Shown: positions 27,956-35,214 of the stretch, in pieces
Numbering within the stretch: the stretch's first letter is position 1
How the letters are laid out: each line of letters opens with the position of its first letter
Assembly: GCA_902806065.1 (NCBI GenBank)
Contig: CADCVE010000015.1
Coordinates: 1 to 64,000, forward strand
Reading direction: 5' to 3'
Source of the DNA: an uncultured Rubrobacteraceae bacterium
Lineage (GTDB): Bacteria; Actinomycetota; Rubrobacteria; Rubrobacterales; Rubrobacteraceae
DNA: 64,000 nt
Notes under the pieces: model-generated
The model's database searches: none
Told to the model about the DNA's origin: nothing
Seen by the model: only the letters and a program-made list of their open reading frames with translations
Position numbers and translations under genes: made by a program

Positions 27956-29542
27956 TTGACCACAGTGCGTGAAATTACCTATGATCTGCTACGCGAACTT
28001 GGGATGACCACTATCTTCGGCAACCCCGGCTCGACGGAGCTGCCGTTTCTCCAAGACTTCCCCGACGACTTCCGCTACGTCCTCGGGCTGCAGGAGGCGT
28101 CCGTGCTGGGGATGGCGGACGGATACGCGCAGGGGACGGGGCAGGCAGCGTTCGTCAACCTGCATACGGGGCCGGGACTCGGCAACGCGATGGGGGCTAT
28201 GGTAACGGCGTGGCACAACAGGACGCCGCTGGTGGTCACCGCTGGGCAGCAGGACCGGCGGCATATATCGCTGGACCCGATGTTGAGCGGGAAACTCGTC
28301 GATCTGGCGAAGCCGTACGTCAAGCGAAGCTATGAGCCGTACCGGGCGGAGGACGTGCCGCGTGAGATCCTCCGCGCCTACCACACCGCGATGCAGGCCC
28401 CGAAGGGTCCGGTCTTTCTCTCCATCCCGATGAACGACTGGGACGAGGAGGCTGAGACGCCCCCATTCCATAAGGTCTACCACGAGCCCGCCCCCGACCC
28501 CGAGGGCCTGAGAGAGTTCGCGGAGATACTCGCGGCGGCGGAGAGGCCGGCTATCGTGGCAGGTGCCTGGGTGGACCGCAAAGGCGCCTTCTACGATACG
28601 GTAGCTCTCGCCGAGAAGCTCAAGGCGGCGGTGTGGGAGGCCCCGCTTGCCTCGCGGGCTGGCTTTCCGCAGGACCATCCACTCTTTCAGGGCAGCCTCG
28701 CCCCCGCCCAGAAGCAGGTCAGCGAGCAACTCGCGGGCTACGACGTCGTGCTGGTCCTCGGCGCTCCGGTCTTTCTGTATTACCCTTACGTGCCCGGACC
28801 GGTGGTTAAAGAAGGAACCCGGGTACTGCAGATCACTGGCGACCCCGACAAGGCGACCCGCGCCGCTCTTGGCACGAGCCTCTTCGGGAACGTCGCGTAT
28901 ACCGTACACCAGCTACTGGAGATGCTGCCGGAGGAGCCGAACCGCGCGGCCCCACCCGCCCGCGAAGCGCCCGCGACACCCGAGGCTGCGACCCCAATAC
29001 CGCCCGCGTATCTGATGCACGCTCTCGCGGAGGTCTTGCCGGATGATGTCTCGATCTTCGAGGAGTCGGGCTCTATCAGGGGGACGTTCCACGAGCACAT
29101 AAGACCGGGCTGGCCCGGGGCGTACTTCAATGCCGCCTCCGGGGGACTGGGATACGCGATGCCCGCCTCCGTTGGGTACAAGATCGCGCAACCAGAGAGG
29201 CCGGTGATCTGCCTGATCGGCGACGGTTCCAGCATGTACTCCAACCAGGCCATGTGGACCGCTGCCCGCTACGACGTAAACGTTCTCTTCCTGGTCGTGG
29301 ACAACAGCGGCTACTACATCCTCAAAGGCTTCCGCGATGCCGGTGGAATACCCGACACCGTCCCCGGCCTTGACCTCCCCGACCTCGACCTCGTGAAGGT
29401 AGCTGAAGGCATGGGTGTCCGCGGCGAACGAGTCGAGAAGCCAGAAGCTCTCGGAGACGCGCTCAAGCGCGGTCTCGCCGCCAAATGGCCCTACCTCCTC
29501 AGCGTAACAGTCGAACCGGAGGCACCCGACCTACCGAGCTGA
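27956..29542 (+). CDS. thiamine-diphosphate enzyme, benzoylformate decarboxylase-like (copy 1)
   Basis: This 528-residue protein has the three-domain ThDP decarboxylase fold. It shows 'FGNPGSTELPFLQDFPDDFR', the catalytic Glu in 'LQEASVLGMADGYAQGTG', His in NLHTGPGLGNAMG, and the ThDP/magnesium motif GDGSSMYSNQAMWTAARYDV near residue 420. Benzoylformate decarboxylases convert benzoylformate to benzaldehyde in mandelate metabolism; paralogues handle other 2-oxo acids. TTG 27956 is preceded by AAGGAGGT, so the non-ATG start is credible. A close paralogue lies 441 bp downstream, and the two share a 148-bp identical block. Confidence 0.88.
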   Translation: MTTVREITYDLLRELGMTTIFGNPGSTELPFLQDFPDDFRYVLGLQEASVLGMADGYAQGTGQAAFVNLHTGPGLGNAMGAMVTAWHNRTPLVVTAGQQDRRHISLDPMLSGKLVDLAKPYVKRSYEPYRAEDVPREILRAYHTAMQAPKGPVFLSIPMNDWDEEAETPPFHKVYHEPAPDPEGLREFAEILAAAERPAIVAGAWVDRKGAFYDTVALAEKLKAAVWEAPLASRAGFPQDHPLFQGSLAPAQKQVSEQLAGYDVVLVLGAPVFLYYPYVPGPVVKEGTRVLQITGDPDKATRAALGTSLFGNVAYTVHQLLEMLPEEPNRAAPPAREAPATPEAATPIPPAYLMHALAEVLPDDVSIFEESGSIRGTFHEHIRPGWPGAYFNAASGGLGYAMPASVGYKIAQPERPVICLIGDGSSMYSNQAMWTAARYDVNVLFLVVDNSGYYILKGFRDAGGIPDTVPGLDLPDLDLVKVAEGMGVRGERVEKPEALGDALKRGLAAKWPYLLSVTVEPEAPDLPS

Positions 29543-29983
29543 GGCTGGGCACCTCCACAAGCTGGAGCGAGCATTCAAATCATGGGCATCTCGGCAGGGC
29601 GGGATCGAAGCTCCGTCGCTGATCTTGACGATCTCTTGCCCTACGGGACAATCGTTAGCCAAAATGTGCCTCCCGTCGTCGGCTGGCTAAAATGTGCCTC
29701 CCGTCGTCGGCTGGCTATTCCCATTGCTCTGAGGAAAGCAGGTGGCAATGAATAGCGGATGAATTCGGCCGGTCTTGAGAAGGTTCGGCATACTGAGTGA
29801 AGCGATCAAGGAGCCGGAAGGCCGCTTGAGCCGGAGACGCCTCCGACGCGGCCGATCCTACTCCTCCACGCGGTCCTTGAGCTTGAGATTCCAGATCTTC
29901 CGAGTCGAGGCCGAACACGCCCCGTTTCGGCTCTCTGGTATATTCATCGCAGGGGTAAGGGCTCTACAAGGGGGTAAAGCGCT
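29543..29983. other. interval between the paralogues; contains a tandem repeat
   Basis: There is no gene in these 441 bp. The left half carries a 28-bp tandem duplication (29661-29716). The right half is a leader: TATATT at 29939-29944 could be a -10, and a run of GGGGTAA-rich sequence precedes ATG 29984. No hairpin terminator was clear after the first paralogue. Confidence 0.5.
29661..29716. repeat. 28-bp tandem repeat, IS21-end-like
   Basis: Two identical, directly adjacent 28-bp units begin AAAATGTGCCTCCCGTCGTC and end GGCTGGCT. A partial unit (AGCC before the first) extends the pattern. Repeated blocks of this size with a TGTGCC-type core are characteristic of the ends of IS21-family elements, where tandem binding sites for the transposase lie. 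No istA/istB gene is present, so this would be a solo end. Confidence 0.6.
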
Positions 29984-31567
29984 ATGGCGACGGTTCGCGA
30001 AATCACCTTCGATCTGTTGCGCGAACTCGGGATGACCACCATCTTCGGCAACCCCGGCTCGACGGAACTGCTGTTTCTCCAAGACTTCCCCGACGACTTC
30101 CGCTACATCCTCGGGCTGCAGGAGGCGTCCGTGCTGGGGATGGCGGACGGGTACGCGCAGGGAACGGGCGAGGCGGCTCTAGTCAACTTGCACACGGGGC
30201 CGGGGCTCGGTAACGCGATGGGGGCGATGGTAACGGCGTGGCACAACAGGACGCCGCTGGTGGTAACGGCCGGGCAGCAGGATAGGCGGCATATCGCTTT
30301 GGAGCCGCTGCTGACCGGAGATTTGGTCGATCTGGCGAAGCCGTACGTCAAGCGAAGCTATGAGCCGTACCGGGCGGAGGACGTGCCGCGTGAGATCCTC
30401 CGCGCCTACCACACCGCGATGCAGGCCCCGAAGGGTCCGGTCTTTCTCTCCATCCCGATGAACGACTGGGACGCCGAAGCGGAGCCGTTCGCGGCGCGGG
30501 AGATCTCGCACCGCTCGGCCCCCGACCCCGAGGAGTTGGCGAAACTGGCGGAGCTGCTCGCGGGGGCGCGCAGGCCGGCTATCGTGGCCGGGCCAGGGAC
30601 TGCCCGGGCGGGGGCTTTCTATGATGCGGAGACGCTCGCGGAGAAGATGCAAGCGGAGGTGTGGAGCTCCCCGAACTCTCCCCTGGCCGGCTTCCCGGAG
30701 AGCCATCCGCTGTTCCAGGGACATCTGGCTCTGGCGCAGAAGACGCTCGCCGGGCAACTCTCGCCCTACGATGTGGTGCTGGTCCTCGGCGCCCAGGTCT
30801 TTCAGTACTACCCTTACGTGCCGGGACCGGTCGTCGAGGAGGGAACACGGCTCGTCCAGATCACCGAAGACCCCGAGGAGGCGCACCGGGCCGCGGCCGG
30901 TATCAGCGTGGTAGGGGACGTGGGTATCGCCATCCGCCAACTCACCGAACTCCTACCGAAAACCGATAGGCAACCACCGCCCGCGCCGGAGCTGCCCCCG
31001 ACGCCAGAAACCACGACACCGATGCCGGTCGAGTATGTAATGCACGTCCTCTCCGAGGTCCTGCCGGAGGATGCAATGATCGCCGACGAGTCGGCCTCCA
31101 GCAAGACGAAGTTCCACAAGTACATCCGGCCGAGCAAGCCCGGCGGCTACCTAACCTCCGCTGCCGGGGGCCTGGGGTACTGCCTGCCCGCCTCGGTCGG
31201 GTTGAAGCTTGCCCGGCCGGATCGTGCGGTGGTCTGCGTCATCGGAGACGGCTCTGTAACGTACTCGATCCAGGCTCTGTGGAGCGCCGCCCGCTACGGC
31301 GCGAACATAGTGGTCGTCGTGATCAACAACAGAGGCTACTCCATCCTGAAAGGCTTCAGGGAAGCCATCGGCATAAGCGACACCGTCCCCGGCCTGGACG
31401 TCCCCGGTATAGACTTCACGCGCGTGGCTGCTGGCTTCGGCGTCGATGGTGAGATAGTCGAAGAGGCGGAGGAACTTCCCAGCGCCTTGAAGAGTGCCCT
31501 TTCGGCTGAACGGCCCTATTTGCTCGACGTGATCGTGGATCCAGAGGTCCCGAAGCTTCTAAGCTAA
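29984..31567 (+). CDS. thiamine-diphosphate enzyme, benzoylformate decarboxylase-like (copy 2)
   Basis: This 527-residue protein is colinear with copy 1: 'MATVREITFDLLRELGMTTI', Glu in LQEASVLGMADGY, His in NLHTGPGLGNAMG, and ThDP motif GDGSVTYSIQALWSAARYGA. The first 160 residues are nearly identical to copy 1; the middle and C-terminal domains have diverged, including around the active-site lid (KTKFHKYIRPSKPG versus RGTFHEHIRPGWPG). Different substrate preference is therefore likely. ATG 29984 follows AAGGGGGTAAAG. The pair probably arose by duplication, followed by gene conversion over part of the N-terminal domain. Confidence 0.88.
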   Translation: MATVREITFDLLRELGMTTIFGNPGSTELLFLQDFPDDFRYILGLQEASVLGMADGYAQGTGEAALVNLHTGPGLGNAMGAMVTAWHNRTPLVVTAGQQDRRHIALEPLLTGDLVDLAKPYVKRSYEPYRAEDVPREILRAYHTAMQAPKGPVFLSIPMNDWDAEAEPFAAREISHRSAPDPEELAKLAELLAGARRPAIVAGPGTARAGAFYDAETLAEKMQAEVWSSPNSPLAGFPESHPLFQGHLALAQKTLAGQLSPYDVVLVLGAQVFQYYPYVPGPVVEEGTRLVQITEDPEEAHRAAAGISVVGDVGIAIRQLTELLPKTDRQPPPAPELPPTPETTTPMPVEYVMHVLSEVLPEDAMIADESASSKTKFHKYIRPSKPGGYLTSAAGGLGYCLPASVGLKLARPDRAVVCVIGDGSVTYSIQALWSAARYGANIVVVVINNRGYSILKGFREAIGISDTVPGLDVPGIDFTRVAAGFGVDGEIVEEAEELPSALKSALSAERPYLLDVIVDPEVPKLLS

Positions 31568-31651: not shown

Positions 31652-32401
31652 CTACGAGCCCCGCTTCATCTCGCGGGTCTCGTTTATTGCTTTGGAGTAT
31701 TCCTTGACCATCAGCTGATATTCGTCGACCTCCTTGAAGGCGACCCTGTCCACAAGCTCGCCGAACCGCTTCTTCAGCGCCACGGTGGTAAAGAAGGCGC
31801 CCCGGTAGTAGGGAACGAGCTGTTCGAGCGTGATCGCCGGTCTCTCGGGACGGACTGTAGAAGACTCAGCCTCTTCAGAGGAGACCCGGATCTCCACGGT
31901 TCCGTTCGCATACTTCTCGGTGATGGCTTCGGGAGTTACGTCGAGGGCTTCGAGCACTTCGTCGTCGCCGGGTCTGTCGGCGAAGTCGTTACCCGAGTAG
32001 AGGTAGCGGATGCTACCGCCGCGGTCGATCACCACGATCGCCGGTACCGCGACGCTCTCTTTATCGTTCCACAGGCCACAAAGTTTAGCAAGGTCCCCGG
32101 TGGGGTCACTGAGGAGTTGGAAGGGAAGGGTTAGCTTCTCGACCATTACTTTGCTATGAGAGGGCGGGTCCACGCTTATGCCCGTGACCCTCGTCCCACG
32201 CTTCTCGAACTCTTCGTACTTCCTGGCATAGCTGACCAGCTGCCCGTTACAGTATGGTCACCAATCTCCCCGGTAGAAGACAAGGACGATGGGGCCTTCT
32301 TCAAGTTGCTGTATGAGGTTGAAGGGCTGGCCCTGCTCGTCGGGTAGCTCGAAGGCCGGCATCTCCTGTCCGGTCTCTATACCGGTGCTCGTCTCAGTCA
32401 C
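31652..32401 (-). CDS. probable selenocysteine-containing peroxiredoxin (UxxC), redoxin domain
   Basis: From GTG 32401 (GAGG site 8 nt upstream) the frame runs 250 codons to the stop at 31652, interrupted only by UGA at 32260-32258, codon 48. The surrounding residues are FYRGDW-UGA-PYCNGQLVSY. Homologous AhpC/TSA proteins have the peroxidatic Cys exactly there (GDWCPYC), so the codon most likely specifies selenocysteine in a UxxC redox motif (Sec48, Cys51). The redoxin domain covers about residues 10-150 (ISVDPPSHSKVMVEK, LPFQLLSDPTGDLAKLCGLW). A helical extension of about 90 residues follows. It should reduce peroxides in the cytoplasm. A GGUC-loop hairpin lies 20 nt past the UGA. The alternative is a pseudogene by TGC-to-TGA mutation. 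An ATG-started reading from 32173 would give only an inactive C-terminal piece. Confidence 0.7.
32225..32245 (-). promoter_or_regulatory. SECIS-like hairpin after the peroxiredoxin UGA
   Basis: On the minus-strand mRNA, GGC-AGCU pairs with AGCU-(AU)-GCC around a GGUC loop (loop at 32237-32234). This gives seven base pairs with a two-nucleotide bulge (AU) on the 3' side. The loop begins 20 nt after the UGA. Bacterial SECIS elements need a short stem 3' of the UGA with a guanine-rich apical loop; the E. coli fdhF element has the same GGUC sequence in its loop. The role is inferred from structure and position. Confidence 0.6.
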
Positions 32402-32529: not shown

Positions 32530-32690
32530 GACTCGCATCGAGAGCGGCGGAGGGAACTGGCCCCGAGAAGCCGCGGCAACCGGCGGTAAGTTGGCAACTA
32601 GCTACTTAGTCAACCATCGCAAGGTGCCAAGTCCAGCAGGATCCCTTGTAAAGGTCCTGGAAGATGTGAAGAGCCACGACGGCCTCTTCT
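32530..32690 (+). ncRNA. SAM-I (S-box) riboswitch with translational expression platform
   Basis: The 32.5-32.7 kb leader matches the S-box consensus in order: 'ATCGAGAGCGGCGGAGGGA', 'CTGGCCCCGAGAAGCC', 'GCGGCAACC', 'AAGGTGCCAAGTCC' and 'GGAAGATGTGAAGAG'. P1 forms between 32532-32539 (CTCGCATC) and 32663-32669. It binds S-adenosylmethionine and should shut the operon when SAM is plentiful. CCTCTTCT (32683-32690) complements the Shine-Dalgarno AGAAGGAGG (32743-32751), and GAAGAG (32668-32673) can instead pair with CTCTTC. No terminator follows. This suggests control of translation start rather than transcription. The metX ATG is an unusual 17 nt beyond the GGAGG. Confidence 0.9.

Positions 32691-32768: not shown

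Positions 32769-35214
<2,446 letters not shown>

Follow-up and report, generated by a model that had tools for sequence, protein, structure and literature searches.

The 64,000-nucleotide window, a stretch of DNA from an uncultured Rubrobacteraceae bacterium, carries on its minus strand a gene with an apparent stop at codon 48 that is almost certainly intact, and we are highly confident that its product is a selenoprotein. Judging from sequence features, this product is very probably a thioredoxin-fold selenoprotein in which UGA is decoded as selenocysteine (Sec), that is, a UxxC peroxiredoxin-like (Prx-like) thiol:disulfide oxidoreductase with likely thioredoxin-like chemistry. The features of the gene are listed in Table 1.

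Re-reading of the minus-strand frame gives 250 codons with a single internal stop, the TGA, in the context ...FYRGDW-U-PYCNGQL..., as an earlier note on this DNA had described, and the ribosome site that it placed before the GTG is also visible. The position of the GTG start recurs in the nearest relatives of the gene. A mechanical ORF caller yields only positions 31652-32173 (173 aa), which agrees with the expectation that ordinary gene calling would recover the C-terminal piece alone. The read-through protein matches both the Redoxin domain and the AhpC-TSA domain (PF00578; residues 11 to 133, 1.4e-33), and the latter match spans the UGA. A PF00578 domain and a UxxC motif, which are expected of a Prx-like thiol:disulfide oxidoreductase, are both present. 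The standard ORF call is a headless fragment, and the gene model is corrected here for a whole bacterial family.

Table 1. Positions of the selenoprotein gene and its features in the window
Feature	Position	Strand	Basis or remark
Selenoprotein gene, UxxC Prx-like thiol:disulfide oxidoreductase (very probable)	31652..32401	-	249 aa; GTG start; TAG stop 31654-31652
UGA codon 48, read as selenocysteine (predicted)	32258..32260	-	TGA kept at same codon in relatives; genome carries sel genes
Codon 51 (TGT), Cys of UxxC	32249..32251	-	Aligns with peroxidatic Cys of peroxiredoxins
Codon 120, invariant Pro at catalytic-Arg position of peroxiredoxins	32042..32044	-	Alignments; Pro in 33/33
Ribosome-binding-like GAGGAA	32408..32413	-	By inspection; 6 nt upstream of GTG
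Putative bacterial SECIS hairpin GGCAGCU-GGUC-AGCUAUGCC	32225..32244	-	Rule-based scan; reduced synonymous change, confined to UGA copies
C-terminal extension, two long helices (residues 192-214, 219-248)	31655..31828	-	AlphaFold2 model; outside best peroxiredoxin fold matches

TGA is found at exactly codon 48 in about 20 of 39 Rubrobacteraceae genomes, as well as in all matches from 5 genomes of other actinobacterial families. The remaining family copies have TGC (Cys) at this codon, apart from two with TCC (Ser) and one with GAC (Asp). The in-frame UGA sits at a redox-active position that is Cys in homologues. The earlier note had proposed codon 48 of close homologues as a check and had named TAA, TAG or frameshifts in close strains as evidence against its reading. 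The copies have TGA or Cys with few Ser or Asp, neither TAA nor TAG occurs at codon 48 in any gene copy from the relatives, and the one exception is a 12-nt duplication in a single draft copy. This tandem duplication (L101; G034:C75), which may be real or an artefact of assembly, gives two UGA codons, GDW-U-PDW-U-PDC. Sec is replaced by Ser or Asp in L086, L094, and L100, and Cys51 has also been lost (to Asp) in L100 and L144. Plasmids and phages were also searched, and they hold only distant relatives of the gene.

All of the close pairs that were tested have a lower dN than dS on each side of the UGA, in most cases by several-fold, which indicates that both halves are maintained as protein. 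Given this low dN in both halves and the recurrence of TGA at codon 48 in about 20 family genomes and 5 from other families, the UGA is not a chance event. If it were a real stop, the gene would be a pseudogene or would make fragments only, in keeping with the short frame (31652-32173) that a normal gene caller sees. However, the same UGA in about 25 genomes, the purifying selection on either side of it, the complete lack of TAA or TAG, and the UGA-linked hairpin and full sel machinery described below all speak against a real stop, to which we give almost no credence.

The source genome contains selA, selB, selC, and selD, the full selenocysteine kit for which the earlier note had recommended a search. 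The selA and selB genes adjoin, and tRNA-Sec (anticodon tca, Rfam RF01852) is just downstream, forming one cluster. The selD gene is on another contig and has an in-frame TGA of its own (L133, 1501-2418, minus strand; context QKAG-U-ASKFAPG), which is followed by a GCUCCAG-GGGAC-CUGGAGC hairpin. In the genomes of other families that have the UGA copy, selB-like matches are found in 5/5, with 4 above the cut-off, and selA in 4/5. Of the family genomes with a UGA copy, only four drafts (G020, G021, G030, and G031; 77-88% complete) have no detected selB, and selA is present in G030. G020 and G021 each have a UGA copy plus a Cys paralogue with neither selA nor selB detected, and assembly incompleteness or foreign contigs may explain this combination. 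Decoding of the UGA as some other residue, for example by near-cognate Trp read-through, would account for the open frame but for nothing more. The position alternates with Cys, the sel genes are present, and Trp is at codon 48 in no copy compared, and we regard such a reading as having a negligible chance of being correct. We rejected both the pseudogene and Trp read-through for the reasons given.

Decoding of the UGA as selenocysteine by SelB and tRNA-Sec, for which the evidence is comparative, would be guided by a putative hairpin that starts 13 nt past the UGA, within the coding sequence. It has a stem of 4+3 bp with a 2-nt bulge on the 3' side, and its GGUC loop starts 20 nt past the UGA. 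Published rules for bacterial SECIS elements give a loop of 3-9 nt with G in the first two loop positions, a spacing of 16-37 nt, and a stem of at least 4 bp, and the putative hairpin lies within these loop, stem, and spacing rules. In most UGA copies, the RNA 3' of the UGA reads CCGUACUGCAACGGGCAGCUGGUCAGCUAYGCCAGG, and the rule-based scan finds the hairpin, with a loop (GGUC or AGUU) that starts 20 nt past the UGA, in all UGA copies except L141, which forms its equivalent with the GGUCU loop shifted, and L101, in which the hairpin is displaced by the 12-nt duplication. The hairpin is absent from 8 of the 12 non-UGA copies. Among the others, L144 and L100 have unrelated hairpins only, while L081 and L088 retain the hairpin with altered letters and look, from their sequences, like recent conversions.

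Selection at synonymous sites points to the same region. Synonymous diversity in the UGA copies is 0.130 over codons +1 to +13 and 0.425 elsewhere (permutation P of ~8e-5, to be taken as a guide because the test assumes independent codons and the sequences are related). In contrast, the Cys/Ser/Asp copies have values of 0.405 and 0.412, respectively, and it is this difference between UGA and non-UGA copies that carries the weight. Thermodynamics alone gives no support: folding z-scores are near 0 for most copies and do not separate UGA from Cys copies. The folding energy of a 34-nt piece is -7.1 kcal/mol, just short of the published limit of -7.5, and a longer piece folds differently, at -13.3 kcal/mol. 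A competing helix, in which the UGA itself pairs with GGUCA, is conserved about equally with the hairpin. The stem is nearly invariant among the copies, so that counting of pairs is uninformative. An Rfam search over the gene gave chance matches only and no SECIS, and a search of the genome with SECIS_1, a model built for eukaryotic SECIS elements, returned nothing, as it did in control genomes. The UGA copies, which keep the putative SECIS, and the Cys/Ser/Asp copies, most of which lose it, form a natural series in which the cost and loss of selenocysteine can be tested.

The earlier note had called the product a selenocysteine peroxiredoxin with UGA at the place of the peroxidatic Cys. A selenoprotein with a UxxC motif is strongly supported, but the role of Sec as the peroxidatic residue is not. 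In HMMER alignments to solved peroxiredoxins, from which the letters were read off, U48 lies opposite the Thr/Ser of PxxxTxxC, and the peroxidatic Cys is matched by C51 instead. In the same alignments, R44 and P120 occupy the places of the catalytic Pro and catalytic Arg of peroxiredoxins. Thus, the peroxiredoxin active site of Pro, Thr/Ser, Cys, and Arg is not matched by R44, U48, C51, and P120. Residue 44 is Arg in 32/33 aligned proteins, and P120 is invariant among them. We take the place of P120 to be the cis-Pro site of thioredoxins (thioredoxin superfamily), and the replacement of the peroxiredoxin Pro, Thr, and Arg makes thioredoxin-like chemistry likely.

In the AlphaFold2 model (pLDDT of 91.5), U48, modelled as Cys, directly precedes helix 49-60. 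By structure comparison, residues up to about 155 match peroxiredoxins, Bcp4 and AhpE among them, at 1.5-2 Å. The nearest solved structures are peroxiredoxins, and the close fold matches span about 150 residues. The C-terminal extension is present in 32/33 aligned proteins. This fold and the AhpC-TSA and Redoxin domains would also suit a true Sec-peroxiredoxin, in which Sec is the peroxidatic residue. However, U48 falls on Ser/Thr and C51 on the peroxidatic Cys, and nearly all copies have other residues for the catalytic Pro and Arg, which makes a true Sec-peroxiredoxin very unlikely. The published classification draws the same line: TxxU proteins are the true Sec-peroxiredoxins, while UxxC proteins are filed apart as Prx-like thiol:disulfide oxidoreductases with shifted positions (PMC13188914, PMC1088965, and Fig. 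3 of PMC1914089). Peroxide reduction by a UxxC site is possible. In the thiol:disulfide oxidoreductase that we favor, Sec48 and Cys51 would act together as a UxxC redox pair where helix 49-60 of a peroxiredoxin-like fold begins. The Sec48 selenolate would attack a disulfide (or a peroxide), Cys51 would resolve the intermediate as a selenenylsulfide, and a cell thiol or thioredoxin would then reduce it.

Proteins of this type are known. UxxC Prx-like selenoproteins have been on record since 2005, and Rubrobacter xylanophilus, of the same organism family as the window's gene, is credited with five selenoproteins in a 2006 survey (PMC1794560). The gene is therefore a further case of a known selenoprotein type, and it may be one of those five. 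By their descriptions, the Prx-like thiol:disulfide oxidoreductase selenoproteins of Geobacter, Desulfotalea, and the Sargasso Sea (PF00578, UxxC/UxxU) likewise have an AhpC-TSA domain, UxxC, and a SECIS inside the gene, but we did not find the two-helix C-terminal extension or the actinobacterial distribution seen here described in that literature. Sec-peroxiredoxin (TxxU), which was initially reported from Eubacterium acidaminophilum, shares the peroxiredoxin fold and has Sec at the active-site helix; in contrast, Sec is three residues earlier here, and the protein lacks the catalytic Thr, Pro, and Arg. CPYC peroxiredoxin-like proteins of Bacteroidota, Proteobacteria, and Verrucomicrobia have the motif FYRGDW-CPYCN and ~30-35% identity over residues 7 to 153, with a match that stops before the C-terminal extension. 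They have Cys in place of Sec in all 59 readable sequences, which were found with a search pattern that favored Cys.

In a tree rooted on four other-family UGA copies, the Cys/Ser/Asp copies are nested among the UGA copies (at least 2 changes), which suggests from the sequences that Sec is ancestral in the clade. Deeper homologues carry CPYC, again from a search that favored Cys. The tree favors Sec-to-Cys change, the reverse of the direction in the 2006 survey, where only Cys-to-Sec changes were scored for Prx-like oxidoreductases (PMC1794560). It is conceivable, although we lean slightly against it, that these genes form a distinct, undescribed actinobacterial UxxC subfamily with its own C-terminal helical domain and an ancestral Sec that later became Cys, Ser, or Asp while the SECIS decayed in parallel. 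With this gene, a Sec redox enzyme joins the repertoire of a Rubrobacter-like lineage, which is known for radiation and heat tolerance.

Across the relatives compared, there is no conserved operon around the selenoprotein gene. Many relatives that do not belong to the genus of the window (L079-L096, L100, and L144) have a CAAX-protease-like (Rce1) gene after it, and in some it adjoins a Ser/Thr kinase. Its neighbors in the window are a thiamine-pyrophosphate (TPP) enzyme and metX. A SAM riboswitch (RF00162, 77.5 bits) at 32532-32670 (plus strand) precedes a homoserine O-acetyltransferase-like gene at 32769; next in line are a Met/Cys PLP-enzyme-like and an aspartate-kinase-like gene. On the other side, positions 27956-31567 (plus strand) hold two similar TPP enzymes side by side (528 and 527 aa), which are probably a tandem duplication.
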